A stretch of 64,000 nt of DNA from Solicola gregarius (GTDB lineage Bacteria > Actinomycetota > Actinomycetes > Propionibacteriales > Nocardioidaceae): the NCBI RefSeq assembly GCF_025790165.1, contig NZ_CP094970.1:2108001-2172000 (forward strand), in the 5' to 3' direction. Both the position numbers and the translations under genes were made by a program. Under the pieces are notes generated by a model. The model did not search any database. It was not told where the DNA came from and saw only the letters and a list, made by a program, of their open reading frames with translations. Positions within the stretch are counted from its first letter, which is position 1, and every line of letters begins with the position of its first letter. Below are positions 19,841 to 32,434 of the stretch, one piece after another.

Positions 19841-22800
19841 TCAGCGACGCTGCACCCGGATGTTGCGGAACTCGATCAGGTCGTTGTCGCTGTGGTTCTG
19901 CAGACCGACATAGCCGGATGCGAACTGACGGAGATCAGTCGGTGGGTCACCCTCGCGCGAGGACTCCTTGCCAGGAGCGTTGGTGAACCGGTTGATCACC
20001 ACGCCGTTGCGGATGATCGTGTACTTCTGGCCGACGACGCGAATCTCGTAGTCGTTCCACACCTTCTTGTCCGTCGGCTGCGCGCCGTCGATGTCGATGG
20101 AGTCGAAGTTGTAGACGGATCCGGTCTTCTGTTGCTCGCCTTCATCGCTCTGGGGTCCGTCGAAGATCTGGATCTCCTGACCGCAGTAGATCGCCACCCA
20201 TGCGGGTGAGTCCTTGGCCGAGCCGACCGTGCCGCAGCTACCCTCAGGTCGGTCTTCGACCGGCGTACGGATGTCGGGGAAGCGTACGAACACGCCGCTG
20301 TTGGCGCGGTAGCCCTCCGGCGCCATGTCTCGGAACTGCAGCCGAAGCGAGAAGTCACCGTACGGCTTGGTGTACCAGAGCATGCCCAGGCCACCGGACG
20401 AGCGGATGTTTCCTTGCTTCGTACGCGTGAATTTGCCACTGGGCGCCTGCTTCCAGCCCTTCAGCGACGCGGCCGTGCCGTCGAAGATGGGCGTGTACGG
20501 TGCGGCCTCGCCGACGTCGGACGAGGCAGCGGCGCGCTCGATCGCGTACTGCTCGTTGTCGTTGAGGGGACCGTCGTCGGCCATCCGCTGCGCCACGTCC
20601 TTGACGTACGTAACGAACGCATCGTGCGATCCCCACGTGCCTTCGTCGTCGATCACGTCGTTGACGGTGCACCCGCCACCGACGCTGTCATTGGCGACGC
20701 CGGTGTCGCTGCCGAGGAACCGAACGGTCGGCCGCGCATCCGGTGCCGGGCAGGAGACCTTGACCTCCTGCTCGACGGTCGCCTTCTCGCCGTCGGCGTA
20801 CGTCACGGTCAGCTTCGCCGTGAACGAGCCGCCCTTGGTGTACGTGTGGGCGGGGCTCATCGCTTTCGACGTGGTGCCGTCGCCGAAGTTCCAGTTCCAC
20901 TTGACGCCTCCGGCCTGCTGCCCGGAGAACTTGATGCGTGTCGGCGTGCCCTGCGACGTCGGCTTCGCCGTCACACCGGCCGCCTCGGACGAGGGTGCCT
21001 CTCCGGGTACGAGCCCAGCCTTGGTCGGCGCGGGCGTCGCCGGGCCACCGTGGTAGCTGATCCGGATCAGCTTCTGGTTCTCATGCAGGCTGAAGAAGCC
21101 GCCTCCGTAGTCGAGCATGTACAGCGCACCGTCGGAGCCGAACTTGGCGTCCATCCAGCTCATCAGCTGATCGTCGTCCGTGCCCGGGGGAATGATCGAG
21201 CGCAGATCCTCGGCGAACGCCGGCGGCCCTTGCTGCGGAACCGTGCCCGGATCCATCGTCGCCGCGATCCGGTTGTTCGCGTTGGACTGGTCGCCGATCA
21301 GCCACTTGTCCTCCCAGTACTTCGGCCACGAGACCTTACTGCCCTCGTCGACCTCGGACTGGTGGAACGTCGGACCCGACATCACTGCCTGGCCGCCGCC
21401 CTTGAGGTACGGCTCGGTGTACGTCTCGTCCTCGATCTTGTAGGTGGGGATGCCGTTCGGGCGCTTCGGGTACGTGACCCCGCCGCCCTGAGGTGAGTAC
21501 CAGATCGAGTTGGTGCGCGCGTCCGGGATATCCGTGAGCCCGGTGTTGCGCGGCGACGTGTTCTTCAGGTTGTCGCAGTCGTACCAGCCGGCGGGCTTCG
21601 TCGCGTCCTCGTTGCTGCGGTCGCGGTACGGCTGCCGGTTGCCCATGCAGTACGGCCAGCCCTGGTTGCCCGCCGAGGTGATCACGGTCGCCGTCTCGTA
21701 CTTCGCCGGACCCCACTTCGGGCTCGGTTCGGACGCATCGGGCCCGACCCAGCCGGCGGTCAACCAGTCCGTCTCGCTGTCGATCTGCAGCCGGGCGATG
21801 TTGCGTACGCCCATCACGTAGATCTCCGGGCGTGCCTTGTCGCCGCCGCCCTCGTCACCGGTGAACAGGTTGCCCGCAGGGACCGAGTACGTTCCGTCGT
21901 CCTCCGGGTGGATCCGGATGATCTTGCCGTTCAGGCTGTTGGTGTTGCCCGACGTACGACGGGCGTCCTGGAACGAGATGCCCTTGTAGTCCTCGGTCCA
22001 GTTGTTACCCGAGTAGCCGTCGGAGCCGCCGGAGGAGTTGTTGTCGCCCGAGCCGACGTACAGGTTGCCCTCGTCGTCGAACGCCATGCCGCCGCCCGCG
22101 TGACAGCAGCTGTGGATCTGAGCCGTCCAGTGCAGGAGATCCTTGCGGGTCGACTGGTCGATCGTGTTCTTCTCCGGGTCGTACGTGAACCTCGAGATCG
22201 TCCGCTCACCGGTCCGCTTGTCGCGGTCGATGGACTCGTGCGGCATCCAGTAGACGTACAGGTAGTTGTTCTCCGCGAAGTCGGGGTCGGCGACGATGCC
22301 GAGGAGGCCCTCCTCGTTCTTCACCAACTCGTCGCCACTGCCGCGGTTGCCCATCACGTCGAGCGTCGTGAGCAGCTTGACGTCGCCGGACTCCGGGTCG
22401 TACCGGTGGATGGTCCCGCAGCCGAGGCCGACGTCGGGGTTGTCCCACTCGACGATGGGTCCGCTCGGGCAGGCGGCCTTGCCGACGTAGAAGATGTCGC
22501 CGCCGGGCGCGACGGTCAGACCGTGCGGTTCGCCGATCTGGTCGAGCTCGCCCTCCTTGTTCTGCGCGGTGAGCTTCTCGACCTTGTAGTTCGAGGCGAT
22601 CGTCGCCTGGCAGTCGCCGCGCACCATTCCGGACGTCCACTGGATCGCGCCGAGCAGGTGCTTGCGGAACTGGTCGTCGCCGTACGCGCCGGCGGTCGCG
22701 CCCATGCCGGTGTAGAACGAGCGGCCGCCCTGGTAGTCGCGGCACCAGGACATGGGATGGAACGGCCCGTTGCCCGAGTCGCCGGGCTGGTAGGTCCGCT

Positions 22801-23467
22801 CCTCGACCTGGGCGACGGTGTGCACCTTGCCGGTCGGGTTCTGCTCCCAGTTCGGCCAGCGTCCGGTGTGCTCGAACGTCAACGGCAGGTCGCGGGTGGC
22901 GGGATGCTGTCGATCGAGTACGTCGACCGTCGCCTGCTGCGCCTTGAACGGGCTGTCGGTCGGTCGGGCGCCGATCAGGCCCGTGAACCAGTCAGAGCCC
23001 GGCTTGACCTTGGCGGCGTCGTGGATGCCGAGGAAGCCGCCGCCGGCCCGGACGTACCTCTGCAGGTTCTTGGTCTGCGCAGCGTTGAGCTCGGAGCCCT
23101 CGCTGGCCAGGAACACGATCGAGCGGAACCGGCCGGGCGACGCGAACACCGCCGGGTCGATCGACACCTCGACCCGGAAGCCGTTCTCGGCTCCGAGTTC
23201 GCGGATCGTCTTGGTCGCGCGTTTGACCGCGTCGTCCTGCCGTGGCGCCGGGCCGTGGAACACCAGCACCTTCGGCTTGGCCGCGGGGGCCGCTGCCGCG
23301 GCCGTTGCGGGCTGATTGGCGGCGTTGGCCGGCGGCGGCGCGCTGGCGCCTGTCGGTGCCGTGAGGGACAACGCGATGGTGCCGACCACGGCCGCCGCCG
23401 TCGCGATTACGCGACGCGCAACGGGGAATCGTAGAGGGCGGGGGGAGTTCGACGGATCGGTACGCAC
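19841..23467 (-). CDS. Secreted ThuA - PQQ-type propeller - PKD - DUF1080 protein, 1,208 residues
   Basis: A GTG start with GGAAGGA upstream opens a long signal sequence and an Ala/Pro linker. Domains in order: ThuA-like (about 65-280; KVLVFHGP, then GGGFLGIHDA); a sorbosone/glucose-dehydrogenase-like propeller (about 300-800; PHGLTVAPGGDIFYVG, GLLGIVADPDF, HSCCHAGGGMAFDDEGNLYVGSGDN); a PKD domain (about 822-905; WNWNFGDGTTSK); a roughly 80-residue module with GGGCTVND and SDVG; and DUF1080 (about 995-1208; IFDGTAASLKGW, GYVGLQNHSDND). ThuA and DUF1080 are both linked to keto-sugar metabolism. All parts would be outside the cell. It starts the operon with the cupredoxin and multicopper oxidase genes, consistent with an extracellular oxidation pathway. 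The substrate is unknown. Confidence 0.85.
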   Translation of the reverse strand: MRTDPSNSPRPLRFPVARRVIATAAAVVGTIALSLTAPTGASAPPPANAANQPATAAAAAPAAKPKVLVFHGPAPRQDDAVKRATKTIRELGAENGFRVEVSIDPAVFASPGRFRSIVFLASEGSELNAAQTKNLQRYVRAGGGFLGIHDAAKVKPGSDWFTGLIGARPTDSPFKAQQATVDVLDRQHPATRDLPLTFEHTGRWPNWEQNPTGKVHTVAQVEERTYQPGDSGNGPFHPMSWCRDYQGGRSFYTGMGATAGAYGDDQFRKHLLGAIQWTSGMVRGDCQATIASNYKVEKLTAQNKEGELDQIGEPHGLTVAPGGDIFYVGKAACPSGPIVEWDNPDVGLGCGTIHRYDPESGDVKLLTTLDVMGNRGSGDELVKNEEGLLGIVADPDFAENNYLYVYWMPHESIDRDKRTGERTISRFTYDPEKNTIDQSTRKDLLHWTAQIHSCCHAGGGMAFDDEGNLYVGSGDNNSSGGSDGYSGNNWTEDYKGISFQDARRTSGNTNSLNGKIIRIHPEDDGTYSVPAGNLFTGDEGGGDKARPEIYVMGVRNIARLQIDSETDWLTAGWVGPDASEPSPKWGPAKYETATVITSAGNQGWPYCMGNRQPYRDRSNEDATKPAGWYDCDNLKNTSPRNTGLTDIPDARTNSIWYSPQGGGVTYPKRPNGIPTYKIEDETYTEPYLKGGGQAVMSGPTFHQSEVDEGSKVSWPKYWEDKWLIGDQSNANNRIAATMDPGTVPQQGPPAFAEDLRSIIPPGTDDDQLMSWMDAKFGSDGALYMLDYGGGFFSLHENQKLIRISYHGGPATPAPTKAGLVPGEAPSSEAAGVTAKPTSQGTPTRIKFSGQQAGGVKWNWNFGDGTTSKAMSPAHTYTKGGSFTAKLTVTYADGEKATVEQEVKVSCPAPDARPTVRFLGSDTGVANDSVGGGCTVNDVIDDEGTWGSHDAFVTYVKDVAQRMADDGPLNDNEQYAIERAAASSDVGEAAPYTPIFDGTAASLKGWKQAPSGKFTRTKQGNIRSSGGLGMLWYTKPYGDFSLRLQFRDMAPEGYRANSGVFVRFPDIRTPVEDRPEGSCGTVGSAKDSPAWVAIYCGQEIQIFDGPQSDEGEQQKTGSVYNFDSIDIDGAQPTDKKVWNDYEIRVVGQKYTIIRNGVVINRFTNAPGKESSREGDPPTDLRQFASGYVGLQNHSDNDLIEFRNIRVQRR

Positions 23468-23698: not shown

Positions 23699-24652
23699 TC
23701 AGAAGCGGACGGTACGCAGGTACTCGTAGCCGACCTCGGTCGTCTGACGCGGCGTTACGTTGGGCTCGTCGTTCTCCATGATGTACTCCTCGACCCGGTG
23801 GTTGTCGAAGATCCTGGGGAAGTCGAGGTTGCCGGTGCCGAGGTCGCACATCTTGCCGGTGTCGGGGTTGCGGTCCTTCACGTGGTACTGGCGCACCTTG
23901 AGCGGGGCGGCATTGATGTGCTCGTTGACGTAGCCCTCGATGTCGTCGCCGGCGTCACCGCTCTCGACGCCACCGGTCGCGATCCAGTACAGGTCGACCT
24001 CGAGGTGGACGAGCACCGGATCGAGCTCGGCCATGAAGATGTCCCACGGCCGCTCGCCATTGCTCAGCGGCAGGAACTCGTGCGAGTGGTTGTGGTAGCC
24101 GTACCGCAGTCCCGCACGCCGTGCGGCCGCCGCCTCGCTGTTCATGTGCCAGGCGAACTGCTTCCACTCATCGGGATTGTCCGAGTTCAGGTACGGGACC
24201 ACGAGGTAGTCCTGTCCCATCGTGTTGGCGTTCTCCAGCTTCACTTCGAGCTCGTCGCGCGTTGCTGAAAGACCGTCGTGGCTCGAGGTCGTGTGCACCC
24301 CGACCCGATTGTGGAAACGCCGCAGCTCCTTCGCCGTCCGGCCGTAGTAGCCGGCCTGCTCGACCCGGCGGTATCCGGCGTCGGCGACGTACCGCAGTGA
24401 CTTGTCGTAGTTCTTCTCGAGGTCGGCGCGGATCGAGTACAGCTGGATGCTGATCAGGCCGGGAGGTACGCGCCGGTGCCCCTTGCGTGCCCTGTCGGCT
24501 GCCGGCTCGGCGGACGCGGGACCCGCCGAGGCGAATCCGAATGCGCCGACGGCGGCCGTGCCGAGTGCGCCTGCGAGTAGGCCGCGCCGTCCGATGCCGG
24601 TTCGTTCCTTGGCCGCGTCGAGCGCGGCATGACCGTCGTATCCGTAACACAT
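23699..24652 (-). CDS. Tat-exported sugar phosphate isomerase/epimerase-like protein
   Basis: The ATG at 24652 has GGAGGGA seven bases upstream, and an ATG at 24667 would overlap that site, so 24652 is preferred (317 residues). A twin-arginine signal (IGRRGLLAGALGTAAVG) precedes a TIM barrel with ISIQLYSIRADLEKNYDKSL, metal-site candidates YGYHNHSHEF and VHLEVDLYW, and YHVKDRN. Most barrels of this family are cytoplasmic; secreted Tat forms are often paired with DUF1080 and propeller proteins in glycoside loci. The first residues (MCYGYDGH) include a cysteine and are unusual before a Tat motif. It lies 54 bp after the eboF-like gene and before a strong hairpin, so it is probably the last gene of that operon. 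Confidence 0.85.
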   Translation of the reverse strand: MCYGYDGHAALDAAKERTGIGRRGLLAGALGTAAVGAFGFASAGPASAEPAADRARKGHRRVPPGLISIQLYSIRADLEKNYDKSLRYVADAGYRRVEQAGYYGRTAKELRRFHNRVGVHTTSSHDGLSATRDELEVKLENANTMGQDYLVVPYLNSDNPDEWKQFAWHMNSEAAAARRAGLRYGYHNHSHEFLPLSNGERPWDIFMAELDPVLVHLEVDLYWIATGGVESGDAGDDIEGYVNEHINAAPLKVRQYHVKDRNPDTGKMCDLGTGNLDFPRIFDNHRVEEYIMENDEPNVTPRQTTEVGYEYLRTVRF

Positions 24653-24706
24653 GCGGGTTCCCTCCATGGGTGTGCTGCTAGGTCGAGTTGCTGTAGGTGT
24701 TGTCGG

Positions 24707-26089
24707 TCAGGCTTCTTCCGGGCTTGGAACTCCCGCCATCTCCAGGAGCAGGTCGCGGACCTGCGTCGCACCGATCCGCGTACGTGACGTCCCGGCGTCG
24801 TTGCACAGCAGCATCGGGCCGTTGTCGTCGTCCGCCGGCAGGCGTCCGTGCGTACCGCGCACCGGCGCCGGGTCGAGCGGGACGACCTTCATCGCGTATC
24901 GAAGGCCCGCCTTCTTCCGGGCCAGCGTCAGGGCCGCCTTCGCCTTCACCGCACGGTCGTCGGGGTCGAAGAACAGCTCGGCCGGGTCGTATCCCGGCTT
25001 GCGATGGATCTCGACCCCGCGCGCGAAGTCGGGTGCGCGAGAGTCGTCGTACCAGTAGTAGTACGTGAACCACGCCGTTGGATCGGCGACGAGGACGAGG
25101 TCACCCGCCCGCTCATGGTCGAGCTCGTACGATGCCTGCTGCGCGCGATCGAGCACGAGGTCGACGCCGCCGAGCTCCTCACACAGCTTCTGCACACGGG
25201 TCAGGTCGGCAGGATCGTTGACGTAGACGTGCGCCACCTGGTGGTCGGCGACCGCGAAGGCGCGAGACGCCCACGGGTCGAGGTACTCCATACCGTCTTG
25301 GGTGTAGACCTCGAGCAGCCCCTCACGTCGCAGCATCCGGTTCACGTCGACCGGGCGGTCGGCGTTCGTGATGCCGTACTCCGAGAGGACGACCGTGGTA
25401 GCTCCGAGCGCATCGGCGTCGTCGAGCAGCGGAGTGATCGCGGCGTCCACGTCGCGAGCGGCGGCCCGGGCCTGGGCCGAGTCGGGACCGTACCGCTGCA
25501 GGTCGTAGTCCAGGTGCGGAATGTAGGTGAGCGTCAGGTCCGCCCGCGGCAGCAGCCGACGGGCGGCGCCGACGATCCACTCGCTGGAGCGGATCGTCGC
25601 GGTCGGACCCCAGTACTGGAACAGCGGGAACTCACCCAGTGCCCCGGTCAGCTCGTCGTGCAGCTCCGGCGGCCGGGTGTAGCAGTCGGGCGCCTTCTTG
25701 CCGTCGGCGTAGTAGATCGGGCGCGGCGTGACCGTCCAGTCCGTCGTCGCGCCCATCGCGTACCACCAGCAGACGTTGGCGACTCGGTATCCGGGCCGAT
25801 GACGTCGGATGGTCTCCCACACCTTCTCGCCTTGAACCAGGCGGTTGTGCTGTCGCCAGAGGAAGATCTCGCCGAGGTCGCGGAAGTACCAGCCGTTGCC
25901 GACGGCGCCATGATCACGCGGTGGCGTGCCGGTCAGGATCGTCGATTGCACCGAGCACGTCACGGCCGGGAGCACGGTGTCCATCGGCGCCTGCCAGCCG
26001 TCGCCGGCGAGGCGGCGTAACCGCGGCATGTGCTCCAGCAGCCGTGGCGTCAGGCCGACCAGATCGATCACCAGCAGCTTTCCACTCAT
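24707..26089 (-). CDS. eboF: EboF-like alkaline phosphatase superfamily protein
   Basis: This 460-residue protein belongs to the nucleotide pyrophosphatase/phosphodiesterase branch of the alkaline phosphatase superfamily. It starts KLLVIDLVGLTPRLLEHMP with a metal-binding aspartate, has the nucleophile threonine in PAVTCSVQST, and further metal ligands in YIPHLDYDLQRYG, VVLSEYGI and VADHQVAHV. There is no signal peptide, so it is cytoplasmic. In ebo clusters EboF is of this type and is thought to hydrolyse a phosphodiester or phosphate of an unknown metabolite. Its ATG overlaps the EboE stop by 4 bp. It follows the family pattern in length and motifs, and the assignment is strengthened by neighbours eboE, eboB, eboA and eboC. 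Confidence 0.82.
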   Translation of the reverse strand: MSGKLLVIDLVGLTPRLLEHMPRLRRLAGDGWQAPMDTVLPAVTCSVQSTILTGTPPRDHGAVGNGWYFRDLGEIFLWRQHNRLVQGEKVWETIRRHRPGYRVANVCWWYAMGATTDWTVTPRPIYYADGKKAPDCYTRPPELHDELTGALGEFPLFQYWGPTATIRSSEWIVGAARRLLPRADLTLTYIPHLDYDLQRYGPDSAQARAAARDVDAAITPLLDDADALGATTVVLSEYGITNADRPVDVNRMLRREGLLEVYTQDGMEYLDPWASRAFAVADHQVAHVYVNDPADLTRVQKLCEELGGVDLVLDRAQQASYELDHERAGDLVLVADPTAWFTYYYWYDDSRAPDFARGVEIHRKPGYDPAELFFDPDDRAVKAKAALTLARKKAGLRYAMKVVPLDPAPVRGTHGRLPADDDNGPMLLCNDAGTSRTRIGATQVRDLLLEMAGVPSPEEA

Positions 26090-27252
26090 GCGGCTTCCTC
26101 CAATCCGAGCGCGATCAGCGCATCGCGTACGTGGGCGAGCTCGGCGGCGAGCCCGCGGGCAAGGGCGTCCGGACCATCTCCGGCGCCGGGGAGGACCGAC
26201 CAGGTGTACGTCTCGACCTCGAGGTGGTCGACACGTGCCTGGGGTCCGCCGAGCAGCGAATCCAGCGACCGATGCAGCTCGTCGCGGGTGCTGCGCAGGG
26301 GCGCCTCCGGGTCGGCATGTACCGGTACGTGGAAATGCACTCGCCAGGGCGAACCCGTGTGCAGCGGGCGATGGCCGTCCAGCGCGTCCGGAAGGTCGTC
26401 GCGGGTCGCGAGGCGGTTGCGGCCCGGGCTGCGTACCTGGTGCAGGAAGCGGTCCTCCGCATACCGGTGCAGTACGTCGCGGGTCGCGGCGTCGGCCGGG
26501 TCGTCCACGTGGAGCGCCGCCGCCGGCTGGGTCTTGACGACCGGGAGCCCGGCGCGGTCGAGCTTGGCCAGGGTCTCCTCCATGTCCTCGAACCCGACCG
26601 CGAGGTGGCAGAGGTCGAGGCAGACGCCGATCCGGGTCCGGTCGACGTCACCGAGGCGCTCGACGGCGTCGGCGATGGTCTCGACGGCGCAGCCCGGCTC
26701 GGGCTCGAGACCGACCCGGATCGAGCGACCGGTGTCTGCCTCGAGCTTGTCGAGTGCCTCGGCGAGCTCGTTCAGATGTGCCATTGCGGCGGCCTGCCGA
26801 TCGCCTAGCCACGGTGCATGCCAGCCGAGCGGAAGTGACGAGATGCTGCCCCGGGCGACGTCATCGGGCAGGAGGTTCGCGAGGACCGTCGCGGCCGCGA
26901 CGGTGTAGTCGAGCCGGGCTCGTTCGTTCCAGGCCGGGTGGTAGACGTTCTTCTTCACCACCGAGCCCTGGAAGTCGGCGTACGGGAACGCGTTCAGCGT
27001 CACGATCTCAACGCCGCCCGACGCCAGGCGATCGCGCAGCCGGCGTACGTCGGCCGGCGAGGAGGCGAGCCGATGCGCCGCCTCGGCGGGGAGCCACATG
27101 CCGAGCCCGATCCGCGGAGCGTCAAGGAGCGTGCGGAGTCGAGATCCGTACTGGACCGCCTGCTCGGCGATACCGTCGACATCCTCTGCAGGCAAGACGT
27201 TCGTGCCGTACGCGAGGTGCACGAGGGTGCCATCTCGATGCCTGAACCGCAT
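26086..27252 (-). CDS. eboE: EboE-like TIM-barrel protein (metabolite traffic protein EboE)
   Basis: The 388-residue protein starts with the EboE hallmark in which the N-terminus reads RFRHRDGTLVHLAYGTNVLPAEDVDG, then a xylose-isomerase-like barrel. Other family-typical segments are GMWLPAEAA, TLNAFPYADFQGSVVKKNVYHP, PLGWHAPWLG, GLEPEPGC, GVCLDLCHLAVGFED, and HFHVPVHAD. The EPEP and LDLCH segments supply likely metal ligands. In cyanobacteria ebo genes are needed for scytonemin monomer to reach the periplasm, but the reaction of EboE is not known. It is 6 bp downstream of the TatD-type gene and overlaps eboF by 4 bp, so it sits inside a coupled operon. Confidence 0.85.
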   Translation of the reverse strand: MRFRHRDGTLVHLAYGTNVLPAEDVDGIAEQAVQYGSRLRTLLDAPRIGLGMWLPAEAAHRLASSPADVRRLRDRLASGGVEIVTLNAFPYADFQGSVVKKNVYHPAWNERARLDYTVAAATVLANLLPDDVARGSISSLPLGWHAPWLGDRQAAAMAHLNELAEALDKLEADTGRSIRVGLEPEPGCAVETIADAVERLGDVDRTRIGVCLDLCHLAVGFEDMEETLAKLDRAGLPVVKTQPAAALHVDDPADAATRDVLHRYAEDRFLHQVRSPGRNRLATRDDLPDALDGHRPLHTGSPWRVHFHVPVHADPEAPLRSTRDELHRSLDSLLGGPQARVDHLEVETYTWSVLPGAGDGPDALARGLAAELAHVRDALIALGLEEAA

Positions 27253-27258
27253 CTCTGA

Positions 27259-28131
27259 TCACCCCTCCGGCCGGGCGCCGCGAAGGATCGAGTTGCCCTC
27301 GTACGTCGCGCCGGCGTCGGTGTGGGCGTCGCCGTCGTCAGGAAGCAGGAGTCGTCCGCTCTGCCCGAAGAACTCGACCGGGTTCTGCCAGAGCACCCGG
27401 TCGACATCGGCATCGGTATAGCCCGCGTCGAGCATCGCCGCACCGGTCTTCGCGGTCTTCAACGGATCACTGCGTCCCCAGTCGGCGGCGGAGTTGACCA
27501 GTACGCGGTCGAGCCCCCGATCCTGCAGGATGCGCACCATCCGGTGCTCGTCCATCTTGGTGTCGGGGTAGATGGAGAATCCCATCCAGCAGCCCGTGTC
27601 GGCGACGAGGCCGACGGTCACCTCGTTCAGGTGGTCGACGAGCACGTGACCCGGCGGTATGCCTGACTCCTCGACGAGGTCGAGCGTGCGCTGCGTGCCC
27701 GCCTCCTTGTCTCGGTGAGGGGTGTGCACGAGCACCGGCAGCTCGAACTCCGCAGCGAGCGCCAGCTGTCGAGAGAACGCCTTCTCCTCCGCCGTGGTCA
27801 TCGAGTCGAAGCCCACCTCGCCGACCGCGACGACGCCGTCCTTTGCGAGGTAGCGCGGCAGCACGTCGAGGACGTCGAGGCACCGTGGATCGTTTGCCTC
27901 CTTGGGATTCAACGCGATCGTGCAATGGTGCGCGATGCCGAACTGCGAGGCACGGAAGCGTTCCCAGCCGACGAGGCCATCGAAGTAGTCACAGAAGGAC
28001 TCGACGCTCGTCCGCGGTTGGCCGAGCCAGAACGCCGGCTCCACGAGTGCGCGTACGCCGGCTGCGTACATCGCCTCGTAGTCGTTGGTCGTACGTGAGG
28101 TCATATGGATATGCGGGTCGAAGATGCGCAT
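27259..28131 (-). CDS. eboB: EboB-like TatD-family metal-dependent hydrolase
   Basis: This 290-residue protein is an amidohydrolase-fold TatD relative. It starts MRIFDPHIHMTSRTTNDYEAM with the HxH metal motif. Other ligands are the glutamate in VAVGEVGFD, the histidine in LVHTPHRDK, the histidine in VLVDHLNE, and the aspartate in NSAADWGRSDP. The TRTTNDYEAM and NPVEFF segments are typical of the TatD-like proteins found in ebo clusters, not of the DNase TatD. It follows the EboA gene by 9 bp and precedes EboE by 6 bp. Its substrate is unknown; hydrolysis of a cyclic or phosphorylated intermediate of the ebo product is an inference. Confidence 0.85.
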   Translation of the reverse strand: MRIFDPHIHMTSRTTNDYEAMYAAGVRALVEPAFWLGQPRTSVESFCDYFDGLVGWERFRASQFGIAHHCTIALNPKEANDPRCLDVLDVLPRYLAKDGVVAVGEVGFDSMTTAEEKAFSRQLALAAEFELPVLVHTPHRDKEAGTQRTLDLVEESGIPPGHVLVDHLNEVTVGLVADTGCWMGFSIYPDTKMDEHRMVRILQDRGLDRVLVNSAADWGRSDPLKTAKTGAAMLDAGYTDADVDRVLWQNPVEFFGQSGRLLLPDDGDAHTDAGATYEGNSILRGARPEG

Positions 28132-28140
28132 CGGATCAGG

Positions 28141-28869
28141 TCAGTCCTTCGGGGTCGTCGGTCGGCTGGCGAGCAGGCGGCGGGCCGCGTCGCTGCGATC
28201 GTCATGTGGGGATGCCAGCTCGGTATCGAGATCGATCAGCGCGACGGCCTCGGGAAAGCGGTCGAGAACGAGCCAGACGTCCGCTGGTACGTCGCGGCCC
28301 GCGGCAACGCGCTCGTGTGCGTACCGCGCGACCATCTCGGCGAGCGACCGATCGGCGCGTACGCGGAGATCGGCGACCGAGGTCAGAGCCACACCGACGA
28401 ACAGACACTTGAGTACGCCCTGGCGCCAGGTGTCGGCGTCGAGCCGTGCGGCCGGTGGGCCCATCGCGGCGGCGACCAGCCGCGTGTCGTTCGTGCGGAG
28501 CGCGTCCTCGAGTACGTCGGGTGCCGCGGCGGAGTCGACGACGCCGAGCCCGAGCAGTACGGCGCGCTTCTCGTCGCTGTCGCCGAACCGGTAGAGCGCG
28601 GCGACCTCTGCGCCACCTCGCGTGGCCGGCAGTGCGCCGACGGCCGCTCGCAACAGTGCGACCCGCACGGCGTCCTCGGCGAGCACCACCTCGCCGTGAT
28701 CGTCGCGCAGGCCGATGTCGCCCCGTGTCGTACGCCGCGCCGCGGCCGGGAAGTATCGCCCGACCGTTTCGGGTGCTTCCTCGATGCGGCGAAGCATGTC
28801 GTCGAGTGCGGCAGCCGCGTCCGGCGGTAGCGCGGCTCGCACGTCGACGGGGGTCGTTGGTGCACTCAT
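28141..28869 (-). CDS. eboA: EboA-domain protein
   Basis: The 242-residue soluble protein is mostly alpha-helical by eye and is alanine-rich. Its features match the EboA family: FPAAARRTTRGDIGLRD near the start, VLAEDAVRVALLRAA, the ALYRFGDSDEKRAVLLGLG segment, ALRTNDTRLVAAAMG and WRQGVLKCLFVGVAL. EboA has no known catalytic activity and is the marker gene of the ebo cluster. The protein here has extra C-terminal residues rich in Asp and Arg. It overlaps the upstream TIM-barrel gene by 4 bp and lies 9 bp before eboB, so it is translated from the same message. Confidence 0.82.
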   Translation of the reverse strand: MSAPTTPVDVRAALPPDAAAALDDMLRRIEEAPETVGRYFPAAARRTTRGDIGLRDDHGEVVLAEDAVRVALLRAAVGALPATRGGAEVAALYRFGDSDEKRAVLLGLGVVDSAAAPDVLEDALRTNDTRLVAAAMGPPAARLDADTWRQGVLKCLFVGVALTSVADLRVRADRSLAEMVARYAHERVAAGRDVPADVWLVLDRFPEAVALIDLDTELASPHDDRSDAARRLLASRPTTPKD

Positions 28870-29738
28870 CCGGCTTCCTCTCTGTCGGCCGCGGCCTTGC
28901 CCACCCGTGCGAGTGACGCCCGCAGCGCGTCCATCGCGGACCGTGCGACCACGGGCGCCGCGTGGGAGTGCCGGGGCAGCTCTACCGATGCAAGCCCTGC
29001 GTAGCCCGTGGCGACCAGTGCCCCGAGCACGCCGTCGAGATCGAGATCACCGGTGCCGAGCTCGAGATGCTCGTGTACGTCGCGCACCATGTCGTCGACC
29101 TGCACGTTGCCGATCAGCCCGCCTGCCTTGGCGATCGTGTCTGCCGGTGTGGTGGGCTCATTGCACACGAGGTGGCCGAGATCGACGGTCAACCGCAAAT
29201 GCTCGGGCGCACCCAGGCGCTCGCGCAAGGCCAGCGCGTCGTCGACGGTCGCGACGAACATCCCGGGCTCGGGTTCGAAGCAGCAGGTCACGCCGAGTCG
29301 CGCCGCGTCGTCGAGCACCGGGCCGAGCCCATCGGTCACCCGGCGCCACGCCTCATCGTCGCCGACGGCATCGGGAAGGGTGCCCGACCAGCACGACATG
29401 GCGTCTGCGTCGAGCTCGTACGCGATCCGTACGGCGCGGCGGAGCAGGTCGACGCGGCGTTCGCGCCCCTCGTCACTGACCAGGGTCGGCTCGTGCTTGC
29501 GCCACGGATCGAGGACGTACCGCGATCCGGTCTCGATGACGCATGCCAGCCCGAACGTGTCGAGCATGCGGCCCGCGTACGCGACCTGGTCGGTGACGTC
29601 GTCGGCGAACGGATCGAGATGCGGTTGGTCAAGCGTCAGCGCGACGCCTTCGTAGCCCAGCCCGGCGATGACCGCACACGCATCACCCAGGCGGTGACCC
29701 GCGAACCCGTTCGTGCCGTAGCCGAGCCGAAGGGTCAT
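28866..29738 (-). CDS. Second sugar phosphate isomerase/epimerase in the ebo operon
   Basis: The 290-residue TIM barrel starts RLGYGTNGFAGHRLGDACAVIAGLGYEGVALT. Likely metal ligands are the glutamates of ACVIETGSRY and CCFEPEPGMF, the aspartate and histidine of LTVDLGHLVCNEP, and the glutamate of ASVELPRHSHAA. The HLELGTGDLDLDGVL segment is typical of inosose isomerase and hydroxypyruvate-isomerase relatives. This gene is an addition to the six-gene cyanobacterial ebo set. It overlaps the genes on both sides by 4 bp (eboA downstream, eboC upstream), so it must be made together with them. A keto-sugar or inosose substrate fits with the inositol-phosphate synthase gene at the head of the operon, but this is inference. 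Confidence 0.83.
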   Translation of the reverse strand: MTLRLGYGTNGFAGHRLGDACAVIAGLGYEGVALTLDQPHLDPFADDVTDQVAYAGRMLDTFGLACVIETGSRYVLDPWRKHEPTLVSDEGRERRVDLLRRAVRIAYELDADAMSCWSGTLPDAVGDDEAWRRVTDGLGPVLDDAARLGVTCCFEPEPGMFVATVDDALALRERLGAPEHLRLTVDLGHLVCNEPTTPADTIAKAGGLIGNVQVDDMVRDVHEHLELGTGDLDLDGVLGALVATGYAGLASVELPRHSHAAPVVARSAMDALRASLARVGKAAADREEAG

Positions 29739-30601
29739 GTCGTACTCATCCGACGGGATGCGTACCTGACCAGCGGGCCGCCGGCGAGCACCGTTGCCGC
29801 CGCGCCGAGGCGTCCGCGGCGCGCGAGCCAGGATGCCTGTAGGAGTGGGAATCCGGCGATCCCGCGACCGGTCGCGTCGCGCACGGTGGCCGCGGAGGGA
29901 TCGGCGATGGTGCGCGACTGGGCGCGGCCGACGACCACGCCGTACGCGGTCGACAGCGCCGCTGACACGAGTCGGTCACGCCGCCGAGCACGGCGATCCG
30001 TCAGCGCGCGCACGACTCCCGCGGTGGCGATGGCGGCGGTCGCGGCGGTGACCGTGCCCGCGCGGGACGGGTCGGTGCCGTGCACCTCGTCGCGGCTCAG
30101 GGTCGTGACTGCGACAGTGTGTGCCGCCACCGAGGTGGCGGGCTCCCAGGCGCGTACAGGTGCCGCGCACGCGCCGAGCAGCACGTCGAGTCCGCGGTTC
30201 GATGCCATCACGACCGGTCCCGCCGGACTCTGCTTGGCGATCGTGTCGTACGCCCAGACCAGCGCCGCGAGGGGCAGGCTGACCCGCAGGGCCGCCCGGC
30301 CGCCGGCAACCGCGGACGCGGAGATGCCGGCAAGCCCGAGCACACCGGCAGTGGTGATCGCGGTACGCGGGCTGATCCGGCCGGAAGGGATGGGGCGCTC
30401 CGGTCGCTCGACGGCGTCGAGATCGCGATCCGCCCAGTCGTTCAGGGCCATTCCCGCCCAGTACAGGCACGCCGAGGCGATCGGCATCGCGGCGCTGTAT
30501 CGCGCCGACGCGCCCGCGTACGCAGCGCCGGTCAGTGCGTCTCCTGGAACCGTCAGCGCGGCGGGGAGGCGGACCAGCTCGGCGAGGTCGCGTCCGTTCA
30601 C
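29735..30601 (-). CDS. eboC: EboC-like UbiA-family prenyltransferase (SCO3242-like)
   Basis: The GTG at 30601 overlaps the upstream stop by 4 bp (GTGA) and gives 288 residues; the frame is open 17 codons further but that part is antisense-like. The protein has about seven to eight hydrophobic helices and the first Asp-rich UbiA motif NDWADRDLDAVERPERPIPSG-like region (NDxxDxxxD) at about residue 65-85. The second Asp-containing loop is AYDTIAKQ. These bind the prenyl diphosphate with magnesium. EboC proteins are thought to transfer a prenyl group to a polar cyclitol-like acceptor; the true acceptor is unknown. Position between the sugar-phosphate cyclase and the isomerase genes suits a late or membrane-linked step. 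Confidence 0.83.
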   Translation of the reverse strand: MNGRDLAELVRLPAALTVPGDALTGAAYAGASARYSAAMPIASACLYWAGMALNDWADRDLDAVERPERPIPSGRISPRTAITTAGVLGLAGISASAVAGGRAALRVSLPLAALVWAYDTIAKQSPAGPVVMASNRGLDVLLGACAAPVRAWEPATSVAAHTVAVTTLSRDEVHGTDPSRAGTVTAATAAIATAGVVRALTDRRARRRDRLVSAALSTAYGVVVGRAQSRTIADPSAATVRDATGRGIAGFPLLQASWLARRGRLGAAATVLAGGPLVRYASRRMSTT

Positions 30602-31754
30602 GGGGCGACCCGCTCGCCGCAGTCGTGCGTCCACGTACGGAGGGCGTCCCACTGCTCCGCGAGCCGATGTTCATCGGAGGCGAGCGGCGCCTTGAAGAAG
30701 AAGCCGAGCGCGGGCAGCGGACCGGAGTCGCCGAGCGCATGCGCGCGAGCGACCAGGCGTACGAGATCGAGCACGAGCGGAGCGGCGAGCGCGGAGTCGC
30801 AACCCTGCCAGGTGAACTGCATCGTCATCCGGGCGCCGAGGAACCCGTCGAAACGGATGTGATCCCAGGCCGTCTTCCAGTCACCGAGGTCGGCGACGTA
30901 GTCGATGTGCATCGGGCCGTCGACCGGACGACCGACCATGGCGTCGAGACCCTCCTGCTTCGTGCCGGTCTTGCTGGCCGCGGCGGTCGGATCGGCCAGC
31001 GTCTCGCCGTCGCCTCCCCGAGCAGGTTGACCGACGTCCAGGATCGGATCGGTAGGGCGCGAGACGCGAACATCGGCGCGAGTACCGACTTCACCAGCGT
31101 CTCGCCGGTCTTGCCGTCCCTCCCGGCGTACGGCAGCCCGTTGCGTTCGGCGAGCTCGCGCAGCGCGGGAACCTCGATGCCGGGGCTCGGCGTGAAGCCG
31201 ACGTACGAACAGCCGGCCAGCAGGGCGGCGCACGCGTACAGCGAGCTCGGTGCCAGCGGCGAGCGACCCGCTTCCCATGCGGCCTGCAGGGCGGCCCAGC
31301 TGGCGACGTCCGCGTCGTCGTCTCGAGGGGGTTCGGTGCTGGAGACGTCGACGACGACAGTACGCGCGACGCCGGACCGGCGGGCGAAGTCGGTGATGTC
31401 GGCCGCGAGCTGCTCGACGGCCGCGGCCTGGTCGGTCGTCGTTCGGGTGCCGGGCCGGATGCGGTCGTCGGCGTCGGCGAGGCCATCGGCGACCGCGGCG
31501 ACGAGCGCGTGCGGCGCGACTCCGCCGGCGACCAGCTGCTCGGCGCGCTTGCCGATCGGGATCTCACTGACGTCGTGGCCGCCGGTCACGAGGTTCTCGT
31601 AGCGAGGTAGGCCGCGCGAGTCGATCTCCGGAAGTGTCGTCACGCAGCCGATCGACTCCACGAGCCGCGCCGCGAGCGCCTGTGCCCCGAGTGTCGCGGT
31701 CGTGGCGAGCGAACCGCGCGCCCCCACGAACCAGATACCGACCTTCTCGTCCAT
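30598..31754 (-). pseudogene. ino1: Inositol-3-phosphate synthase, frameshifted
   Basis: The first frame starts MDEKVGIWFVGARGSLATT, a Rossmann start typical of actinobacterial inositol-phosphate synthases, and runs through VVVDVSSTEPP, GCSYVGFTPSPGIEVPALRE, GLPYAGRDGKTGETLVKS and RSWTSVNLLG. The family then needs a G-x-DG-x-L motif. Here the frame breaks at a run of four C on the plus strand (31016-31019); one more base restores GGGDGETLADP and the rest, GPMHIDYVADLGDWKTAWDHI, DGFLGARMTMQFTWQGCDS and the stop at 30598. The restored protein would be about 385 residues, normal for the family. It makes inositol 1-phosphate from glucose 6-phosphate. It leads the ebo operon and overlaps eboC by 4 bp. 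A single homopolymer indel may be a sequence error. Confidence 0.82.
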
Positions 31755-31919
31755 GTGCCGCCCACCGATCGTGAGGATGCGTTGCTGGAACGCCGGATAT
31801 GCGGCAACGTAACCCACGTCACGCGCCAGTTTCAACGGCTGGTGCGCATCTTTTGCTGGTCCGGTGAAAAAAGGACGGTTGCGTACGAGGCGGGCGGCTC
31901 AGCGATGACGACTCCGGGC

Positions 31920-31950
31920 TTGCGTTAGAGCGCGCTCTAACCCGTACGGT
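31920..31950 (+). promoter_or_regulatory. MerR-type promoter with 19-bp spacer and 18-bp operator
   Basis: TTGCGT (31920-31925) and TACGGT (31945-31950) are separated by 19 bp, the abnormal spacing typical of MerR-activated promoters. The spacer region holds GTTAGAGCGCGCTCTAAC (31924-31941), a perfect 18-bp palindrome. The ATG of the MerR gene is at 31958, eight bases after the -10 box, so the transcript would be leaderless. This predicts autoregulation of the MerR/aldo-keto reductase unit. Confidence 0.65.
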
Positions 31951-31957
31951 CGAATAC

Positions 31958-32434
31958 ATGACGAGCACGGTGCAGGAACTACGGGACGTCTTGGACACGA
32001 CACCGGTCGCGGACCTTCCTCCGGTGACCGAGCTGCTCTGCAGCAGCACACTTTCCGAGTCGGTCGAGGGGCCGTTGAGTATCGCGGAGGTCTCCGAGCT
32101 GATCGGGGTCAGCACGTACACGCTGCGCTACTACGAGCGCATCGGCATGGTCGGTGTCGAGCGCGACGCGTCCGGGTATCGGCAGTACGACCGGGACTCG
32201 ATCGGTCGGCTCATGTTCATCACTCGGCTGCGGCTCTCCGATATGCCGATCCGGGACATCCAGCGCTACATCGCGCTCGTCGAGGAGGGCGATCGCACGA
32301 TCCCCGAACGCCGCGAACTGCTCGAGAGTCATCGCGAGTCGATCCGTGGCCAGCTCGGCGACCTGCAGGTCGCACTCGCGGTCGTCGACTACAAGATCGC
32401 GACGTACGGCGGCGAACTGGCCGACACGGCCTAG
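31958..32434 (+). CDS. MerR-family regulator of the aldo/keto reductase
   Basis: The 158-residue protein has an N-terminal extension of about 35 residues, then a MerR DNA-binding domain (about 38-105: [24 protein letters not shown], then [20 protein letters not shown]) and a coiled-coil dimerisation helix ending with the [17 protein letters not shown] segment. No cysteine cluster or large ligand domain is present, as in short MerR regulators that respond to aldehydes or oxidants. A MerR-type promoter with a palindromic spacer lies immediately upstream. The aldo/keto reductase gene begins 64 bp downstream on the same strand. It is divergent from the ebo operon start at 31754, but the regulatory site lies closer to this gene. 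Confidence 0.88.

Follow-up and report, generated by a model that had tools for sequence, protein, structure and literature searches.

The window, a stretch of 64,000 nucleotides from Solicola gregarius, contains a tightly coupled run of genes on its minus strand. The first gene codes for an inositol-3-phosphate synthase of the archaeal type (MIPS/INO1, 30598..31754), whose N-terminal and C-terminal parts match PF07994 (5.1e-33) and PF01658 (4.7e-18). It is followed by an EboC-like UbiA prenyltransferase of the SCO3242 family (29735..30601, PF01040), a xylose-isomerase-like TIM barrel which we call TIM2 (28866..29738, PF01261, 1.4e-36), EboA (28141..28869, NF035938, 143.8 bits against 50), EboB, a TatD-type metal-dependent hydrolase (27259..28131, PF01026, 1.2e-13), EboE, another TIM barrel (26086..27252, NF035939, 384.9 bits against a cut-off of 250), and EboF, a phosphodiesterase of the alkaline phosphatase superfamily (24707..26089, PF01663, 5.8e-66). 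Neighbouring genes share 4 bp or are separated by 10 bp at most, except for the 39 bp between EboF and a further minus-strand TIM barrel gene, TIM0 (23699..24667, PF01261, 7.7e-09). The profile matches and the short overlaps and gaps bear out the preliminary description of this DNA, which had placed EboF, EboE, EboB, EboA and EboC in one coupled run. The order MIPS-EboC-TIM2-EboA-EboB-EboE-EboF is found again across the phylum with few exceptions, which rules out chance or misannotation as the origin of the run.

The N-terminus of TIM0, judged by eye, is twin-arginine-like. TIM0 looks like a secreted protein which is part of a neighbouring module, not of the operon core. In this module, a probably secreted protein (19841..23467, minus strand) combines ThuA, glucose/sorbosone dehydrogenase (GSDH), PKD and 3-keto-disaccharide hydrolase domains, according to Pfam. 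The range first given for the operon, 23699-31754, includes all of its core, but the lowest gene, TIM0, would have to be assigned to the neighbouring module. At the other end, a MerR-family gene (31958-32434, plus strand, PF13411, 5.8e-17) is divergent from the synthase. Between them lies a 16-bp palindrome (31925..31940), a possible operator.

The prenyltransferase is homologous to EboC, but it only passes the SCO3242-family model (NF045897, 335.5 bits against a cut-off of 260): The cut-off of the NCBI EboC model is not reached (NF035940, 132.6 against 250). Its first motif is NDxxDxxxD. The mechanical ORF starts at 30652, but a GTG at 30601, which overlaps the synthase stop, is the likelier start. 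In the case of EboA the domain model is satisfied, the narrower subfamily model is not (NF035937, 57.4 against 320). In an EboD-type locus of Mycetohabitans, the EboB-type protein shares 58.8% identity with the EboB of the window. Profiles of actinobacterial EboB and EboF match the EboB and EboF of EboD-type loci, and the EboB proteins can be aligned.

The canonical ebo operon (eboABCDEF), present in eustigmatophyte plastids, cyanobacteria, Bacteroidota and Proteobacteria, shares EboA, EboB, EboE, EboF and an EboC-type UbiA protein with the window. On the other hand, the window lacks EboD and has two genes in its stead, for an additional TIM barrel and for a MIPS with a different fold, and its EboC is of the SCO3242 family. 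The passages of PMC3610822 on S. coelicolor list SCO3242, a putative transferase, and SCO3243, a myo-inositol phosphate synthase, within the CDA genes SCO3210-SCO3249. This pair, known here from the literature, has the same EboC family as the window, but it is found in an antibiotic cluster.

The operon synthase and the absence of EboD

The preliminary description had an inositol-3-phosphate synthase at the head of the operon. The gene is there, with both Pfam halves, but it has no single open frame in the window. Its N-terminal part is found in one ORF (30825-31835) and its C-terminal part in another (30598-31278), with a one-base frame change at a short G run near 31016-31019. In another genome of the same genus (locus L011 in G001) the gene is intact, in a single frame.

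The solved structure nearest to an operon MIPS of the same family (L012) is that of A. fulgidus (1u1i, 2e-52), while the mycobacterial type is far away (1gr0, 7e-9). Six residues of the A. fulgidus enzyme, D225, N255, K274, K278, K306 and K367, which we take to be the catalytic positions of MIPS, are identical at the aligned positions of all 98 operon proteins compared. Both this count and the tree of operon MIPS leave out the window gene and a fragment, L197. In the window gene the catalytic residues are visible, spread over the two frames. Another lysine near the active site, K234 in A. fulgidus, is replaced by Arg in 32 of the 98 proteins. The operon MIPS is predicted, from its sequence, to convert glucose 6-phosphate into inositol 3-phosphate. 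The difference from the archaeal enzyme is one of context: The window-type synthase sits beside a prenyltransferase in an ebo-like operon. We have rejected an identity as five-membered-cyclitol-phosphate synthase, as annotated for 6k96, with which only a distant similarity is found (3.5e-7).

The genome of Solicola gregarius has a separate housekeeping MIPS elsewhere, of the actinobacterial type (TIGR03450). Both types belong to the same superfamily, but clade and locus are different. In the MIPS tree the operon copies are grouped in a clade apart, and where the TIGR03450 model detects them they only reach 19-42 bits, against a cut-off of 638. Besides the operon copy, 17 of 21 genomes contain a TIGR03450-type gene with a strong match, which exceeds the curated cut-off in 15 of them. 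The separate gene and the separate clade rule out that the operon synthase is simply the housekeeping copy. It might still provide additional inositol 3-phosphate, from which mycothiol or phosphatidylinositol is made, and be placed in the operon by chance. Four of the 21 genomes (G305, G089, G135 and G113) have only weak TIGR03450 matches, and G305 has no PF07994 match besides the operon copy, which could meet the needs of the cell in this case. G089, G135 and G113 each contain another PF07994 gene outside the operon. Nevertheless, the strong separate gene in most genomes, the distinct clade and the conserved presence and order of the operon copies make such a role very improbable.

EboD is a cyclase with the fold of dehydroquinate synthase (DHQS), thought to use sedoheptulose 7-phosphate. 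A DHQ-synthase gene is absent from the operon, a result which is informative because the DHQS profile detects the EboD of known EboD-type loci at 185-208 bits. The single PF01761 match in the whole Solicola gregarius genome is about 2 Mb away (G000:C1:4163363) and falls outside the EboD clade in the DHQS tree. EboD is therefore missing, as the preliminary description had claimed. The 21 actinobacterial genomes contain 31 DHQS-family matches, at least one in each of 20 genomes and none in G010. None of the 30 matches placed in the tree is a member of the EboD clade (G242:C1:3231555, which has no locus, is left out), which rules out an EboD elsewhere in the genomes tested. We should also note that one DHQS-family protein with a long branch (L109, genome G188) adjoins the EboD clade.

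Distribution of both cyclases and of TIM2

Among 394 genomes of the class, EboE is found above its cut-off in 90 and PF07994 in 89: Both are present in 85 genomes, only EboE in five, only MIPS in four, and neither in 300. The EboE count excludes 16 EboE-like rows under the cut-off, ten of which are L261-L270. MIPS is found in 83 of 94 EboE loci, DHQS/EboD in none of them. A survey of this kind had been proposed in order to see whether eboD and the synthase exclude each other, and they do: The 131 loci with a typed cyclase have either MIPS (100) or DHQS (31), never both. Three EboE loci of family f3 (L015-L017) were rejected as an EboD-type comparison, they are remnants or lone EboE genes.

The system is not restricted to Actinomycetota. 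MIPS-type loci with TIM2-like genes are also found in haloarchaea, Gemmatimonadota, Planctomycetota and Myxococcota. In a tree of EboB, which includes 16 of 94 actinobacterial MIPS loci, the cyclase label changes four times, at least three of them on well-supported branches. As for plasmids, 16 of the 53 records with an EboB match were examined.

TIM2 follows the synthase. A TIM2-like gene is found in 96 of the 100 MIPS loci and in none of the 31 DHQS loci, so the swap covers at least two genes. Acidic and His positions are conserved in its alignment. In five loci TIM2 is fused to EboA, which fits the actinobacterial EboA with a xylose-isomerase-like domain described in passages of PMC5133447. 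TIM partners in haloarchaea and Myxococcota are more distant (about 140-175 bits). There are exceptions on both sides. TIM2 is absent from the examined stretch of four MIPS loci (L180, L182, L203 and L209), and four loci (L335, L350, L353 and L281) have TIM2-like genes although the searched genome or record contains no MIPS. Two of these, L350 and L353, come from MAGs, and L281 is only a plasmid, while L335 is found in a 10.7-Mb isolate genome.

The survey, the mutual exclusion of both cyclases and the separate housekeeping MIPS strongly support the presence of the synthase in place of EboD. Of the two findings which the preliminary description had named as refutations, an eboD elsewhere and a housekeeping synthase, neither was made. 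MIPS and TIM2 are very probably a dedicated two-gene replacement of EboD. Some related cases are found in the literature. Passages of PMC5133447 describe an exchange of eboA and eboG, and also a Leeuwenhoekiella operon and two Planctomycetes without eboD, ascribed to possible draft assembly or loss. The word "inositol" is absent from the main text of that paper, and no substitute cyclase is described in these passages. No ebo operon with an inositol synthase was found in the open-access literature, as covered by titles and the opening of abstracts, with subscription papers outside this scope. The inositol-synthase version of the ebo cluster appears to be widespread and undescribed so far.

Neighbouring genes and the putative product

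The protein families suggest isomerisation, prenyl transfer and phosphate removal as later steps. We infer a pathway in which the dedicated archaeal-type MIPS would form the ring in place of EboD, giving myo-inositol 3-phosphate from glucose 6-phosphate. TIM2, a metal-dependent TIM barrel, would reshape or isomerise this cyclitol, and the EboC-type UbiA enzyme would attach a prenyl chain. EboE (isomerase-like), EboB (hydrolase) and EboF (phosphodiesterase) would then finish the head group, with EboA assisting. Such a pathway would end in a prenylated membrane lipid derived from inositol, with the help of which a metabolite, or an oxidative enzyme outside the cytoplasm, might act across the membrane. 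Taken as a whole, this scheme is somewhat more likely than not. That the product is prenylated and derived from inositol is an evenly balanced proposal, and a role in membrane or extracytoplasmic traffic is a more tentative one.

Several observations count against this scheme. Isomerases of the TIM2 class usually require a keto group, which myo-inositol 3-phosphate does not have, and characterised UbiA enzymes are not known to use inositol as an acceptor. The exceptions to the MIPS-TIM2 pairing, the more distant TIM partners of haloarchaea and Myxococcota, the change of K234 to Arg and the frameshift in the window must also be considered. In addition, an ebo cluster is reported in Saccharomonospora, an actinobacterium, with eboD described as part of the set in passages of PMC9235831. 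According to the same paper, Ubi-297, an EboC homologue, farnesylated quinoline-like aromatics. Solved structures do not fix the substrates, since EboF (nearest to phosphonoacetate hydrolase, 1.3e-11), EboC and TIM2 have weak relatives only, and a search of the structure database finds none for EboE.

The two-gene swap may give another core, or it may return to the usual one. In the latter case MIPS and TIM2, perhaps with a neighbouring dehydrogenase, would make the keto-cyclitol-like intermediate of EboD, and both cyclases would give the same product. The remaining Ebo proteins are common to both types, TIM2 is restricted to the MIPS type, and repeated swapping on a single EboB backbone would be expected if downstream enzymes meet the same substrate. 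Genes of the Gfo/Idh/MocA type are found near some MIPS-type loci, but also at one EboD-type locus. Nevertheless, the operon lacks a constant oxidase gene, the substrates differ in carbon number (C7, as proposed for EboD, and C6 for MIPS), and actinobacterial EboC is an NCBI family of its own, which may mean an altered substrate. We consider a common product unlikely.

The neighbourhood suggests another possibility. The 91 actinobacterial MIPS loci include 48 with a GSDH-type protein, 47 with a TIM0-like gene and 39 with a 3-keto-disaccharide hydrolase, against 0, 1 and 0 of the 31 DHQS loci. The 15 orphan EboE loci have none of them. This contrast is partly biased: The neighbour profiles derive from these same actinobacterial loci, and the DHQS loci belong to other phyla. 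The neighbour clusters come from a reduced ORF set, and four of the nine representatives scanned have no Pfam match and may be wrong-frame ORFs. In a Natronococcus plasmid, MIPS-EboF is followed by a TIM barrel and a PQQ-dependent sugar dehydrogenase. The operon might be a metabolic unit for sugars or cyclitols, linked to extracellular 3-keto-glycoside processing, with inositol phosphate as a polyol intermediate and no role as a lipid carrier. This is improbable: The membrane prenyltransferase is retained in nearly every operon, 31 of the 91 loci have none of these neighbours within the stretch examined, and one Streptomyces plasmid copy is found near an NRPS gene instead.

A broader reading takes the Ebo product as a membrane lipid cofactor which serves extracytoplasmic oxidoreductases as carrier or redox partner, with interchangeable C7 (EboD) or inositol (MIPS and TIM2) cores swapped several times. 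It would explain the GSDH and PQQ-dependent dehydrogenase neighbours, and also the ScyD/ScyE-family and multicopper-oxidase genes beside the MIPS-type operon in two Streptomyces plasmids. The canonical ebo genes are likewise found beside scytonemin genes, and passages of PMC6282210 report that Nostoc needs ebo for scytonemin export. We regard this reading as doubtful, well below the prenylated inositol lipid which we favour.

In summary, the ebo cluster spans many phyla and an algal plastid and is poorly understood, and the exchange of its cyclase for one with well-known chemistry gives a handle on it. Organisms with the MIPS type should start from inositol phosphate, a precursor which may be labelled and traced. 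The system is carried by a sizeable minority of the genomes sampled from the Actinomycetota class, Streptomyces included, and by some haloarchaea. A prenylated inositol product, if true, would add a new type of lipid to those known from membranes.

Layout of the operon and its synthase

The operon (23699-31754, minus strand) is transcribed in the order MIPS (inositol-3-phosphate synthase, PF07994), UbiA-type prenyltransferase, TIM2 (an extra xylose-isomerase-like TIM barrel), EboA, EboB, EboE, EboF and TIM0, a second TIM barrel. The preliminary description had placed the named Ebo genes in one coupled run, and their presence is confirmed. In curated models EboE reaches 384.9 bits against a required 250, and the EboA domain 143.8 against 50, while Pfam identifies EboF as a PF01663 phosphodiesterase and EboB as a TatD-type hydrolase. 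The prenyltransferase is over the cut-off of the NCBI 'SCO3242 family' model (335.5 vs 260) and under that of the EboC model (132.6 vs 250). Gene junctions are 4-bp overlaps or at most 10 bp long, the exception is EboF/TIM0, with 39 bp. A perfect 16-bp palindrome (31925-31940) is found between the MIPS gene and a divergent MerR-family gene.

The MIPS gene described at the head of the operon is present, but not in one frame: a change of one base, in a brief stretch of Gs around 31016-31019, splits it in two. In the same-genus genome (G001) it is unbroken, in a single frame. The simplest cause is a homopolymer slip in the assembly; a real mutation is possible. Since the window gene is split, the operon MIPS of L012, a locus from the same family, stood in as query. 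Its nearest solved structure is that of Archaeoglobus fulgidus MIPS (1u1i, 2e-52), mycobacterial MIPS being distant (1gr0, 7e-9). An alignment of 98 operon proteins shows no variation at the six catalytic positions D225, N255, K274, K278, K306 and K367 (A. fulgidus numbering); at K234, 32 of the 98 have Arg.

The operon gene is not the housekeeping synthase. This is ruled out by a separate TIGR03450 MIPS in the window's own genome (694 bits, G000:C1:1982698-1983747) and by a quick tree (119 proteins), in which the 92 operon copies from actinobacteria and the 17 housekeeping copies fall into separate clades, with supports of 98 and 100, respectively. The operon MIPS of the various phyla may have one origin or several: their grouping has a support of 89 in this tree, with Gemmatirosa outside and long branches joined. 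Those of named Streptomyces plasmids group with class relatives of the window genome; this placement and the actinobacterial type of the genome's own housekeeping MIPS point to an actinobacterium. A TIGR03450 match over the cut-off (638) is found in 15 of 21 genomes, two more are just below it (606 and 603 vs 638), and four (G305, G089, G135 and G113) only have weak matches.

Exchange of the cyclase

EboD, the DHQS-fold cyclase of the canonical ebo operon, is missing from the operon, as had been noticed, and the sole DHQ_synthase match of the genome lies about 2 Mb away. The search gave 31 matches in 20 of 21 genomes; known EboD genes have 185-208 bits with the DHQS profile. We have placed 30 of these matches (leaving out G242:C1:3231555, a match without a locus) in a tree with 30 ebo-linked DHQS proteins of other phyla. 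A single clade (100/99) takes in all ebo-linked proteins and none of the 30 actinobacterial ones from the 21 genomes searched, which rules out an EboD elsewhere for these 30 matches. One actinobacterial protein, L109 from the MIPS-type genome G188, neighbours this clade on a very long branch.

It had been asked whether eboD and the synthase exclude each other, and among the loci with a typed cyclase (100 MIPS, 31 DHQS) they do: none has both. A TIM2-like gene, scored as present above 100 bits, is found in 96/100 MIPS loci vs 0/31 DHQS loci; the MIPS loci without it are L180, L182, L203 and L209. TIM2 exceeds 300 bits in Actinomycetota, Gemmatirosa and two Planctomycetota loci. The partner in haloarchaea and Myxococcota is more distant (about 140-175 bits), so the pairing there extends only to the wider subfamily. 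In four loci, L335 (from an isolate genome), L350 and L353 (both from MAGs) and L281 (on a plasmid), a TIM2-like gene is present and a search of the genome or record gives no MIPS. Five class loci have a TIM2-EboA fusion, in agreement with a remark on actinobacterial EboA hybrids in PMC5133447. In the EboB tree (53 rows, among them 16 of 94 actinobacterial MIPS loci), the cyclase changes four times, at least three of them on well-supported branches, the direction not being given by the tree. Judging from these sequences, the exchange of the cyclase involves two genes, MIPS and TIM2.

In the class-level sample (394 genomes, the related ones among them not being independent), 90 genomes have an EboE over the cut-off and 89 a PF07994 match (E no higher than 1e-8) at any place in the genome: 85 have both, 5 have EboE without MIPS, 4 have MIPS without EboE, and 300 have neither of them. 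The 90 genomes have 94 EboE loci. MIPS is in the stretch in 83, including the window (two frames) and L197 (a fragment); the DHQS profile finds none in the 94. The 11 loci without MIPS are two second copies (L052, L193), loci cut by a contig end (L201, L234, L235), L229, whose PF07994 gene is on another contig, and divergent EboE alone (L216, L245, L248, L259, L260). These last loci and L261-L270, all from class relatives, are lone divergent EboE-like genes, with no other ebo genes in the stretch.

Some other cases may be mentioned. L052 (G166) and L193 (G604) come from genomes of one family, each of which also has a MIPS-bearing copy; the operon copies of each genome may share one synthase. 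In L061 (G316), a degraded copy, MIPS is missing, EboC is broken and EboE is shortened; its genome has a PF07994 gene elsewhere. A same-order genome has a remnant of the operon (L015:7064-8977): a YibE/F-like protein fused in frame to EboB's C-terminal half, with EboE and EboF after it. SCO3242-family prenyltransferases are over the cut-off in 13 of 296 phylum-level sampled genomes.

Neighbouring genes and other phyla

After TIM0, the window has a gene (19841-23467, minus strand) for one long protein with ThuA, GSDH (glucose/sorbosone dehydrogenase), PKD and 3-keto-disaccharide hydrolase domains (Pfam). Among 91 actinobacterial MIPS loci, a GSDH-type protein is present in 48, a 3-keto-disaccharide hydrolase in 39 and a TIM0-like gene in 47; 60 loci have one or more of the three. 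The GSDH protein is within 4.5 kb in 48/48 loci and on the operon's strand in 41/48. The 31 DHQS loci, which belong to other phyla, have 0, 0 and 1, respectively, with profiles built from actinobacterial flanks, which could overlook remote forms. A fairer control is the set of 15 orphan EboE loci from this class, in which the profiles find none of the three (p 9e-5, kinship not corrected for). MIPS, EboF, a TIM barrel and a PQQ-dependent sugar dehydrogenase follow one another on a Natronococcus plasmid. On two Streptomyces plasmids the operon comes after a ScyD/ScyE-family gene and is followed by a multicopper oxidase; on a third, its surroundings include an NRPS-type gene and an ABC transporter.

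Searching public plasmids for EboB gave matches in 53 records, 16 of which provided the loci described here. Haloarchaeal plasmids from Halobaculum, Halocatena and Natronococcus carry MIPS, EboB, EboF, a UbiA protein and two TIM barrels; a Haladaptatus plasmid has the same genes, without MIPS on the plasmid. The Gemmatirosa locus is MIPS-type. Those of two Deinococcus, Azospirillum, Aureibacter, Ketogulonicigenium, Mycetohabitans and Roseivivax are EboD-type, and a Gloeothece plasmid has EboB and a DHQS gene. Ferritin-like and large hypothetical proteins are found near EboD-type genes in cyanobacterial, Bacteroidota and Burkholderiales plasmids (L275, L276, L283). A broad genome scan, mostly of Planctomycetota and Verrucomicrobiota, gave 80 loci among the matches listed: 23 with DHQS, 2 with MIPS (a Planctomycetales MAG and a Myxococcota MAG), and the other 55 without either cyclase in the stretch; no locus has both. 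A gammaproteobacterial MAG (L364) has ebo genes and a TIM2-like gene, with MIPS on another contig.

Putative product of the operon

The product of the MIPS-type operon would most likely be a prenylated, inositol-derived lipid. MIPS converts glucose 6-phosphate to myo-inositol 3-phosphate, which the operon enzyme would supply, and UbiA enzymes transfer prenyl groups, so that the UbiA-type enzyme would add one to the inositol-derived compound. Relatives of EboF include phosphonoacetate hydrolase and nucleotide pyrophosphatase. The class to which TIM2 belongs is made up of isomerases, epimerases or dehydratases that depend on a metal, and an alignment shows that TIM2 keeps their typical acidic and His positions. 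The chemistry of this class normally needs a keto group, a point against an inositol lipid.

Previous studies propose an isoprenoid-cyclitol as the canonical ebo product, with EboD acting on sedoheptulose 7-phosphate (PMC5133447), and report that in Nostoc each of five ebo genes is needed for scytonemin and for export of its monomer (PMC6282210). Together with what is known of the enzyme families, they point to a prenylated inositol-derived lipid. On the other hand, an EboC homologue farnesylated quinoline-like aromatics, according to PMC9235831, a further weak point of this proposal.

PMC5133447 already describes the ebo operon with EboA/EboG variants and a few cases without eboD. We have found no description of a version with a non-homologous cyclase and TIM2 in open-access titles and abstract beginnings. 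The NCBI family names SCO3242, EboA and EboE already hint at the link. The version with MIPS and TIM2 is prevalent among the EboE-bearing genomes of the class, and it is also present in archaea.
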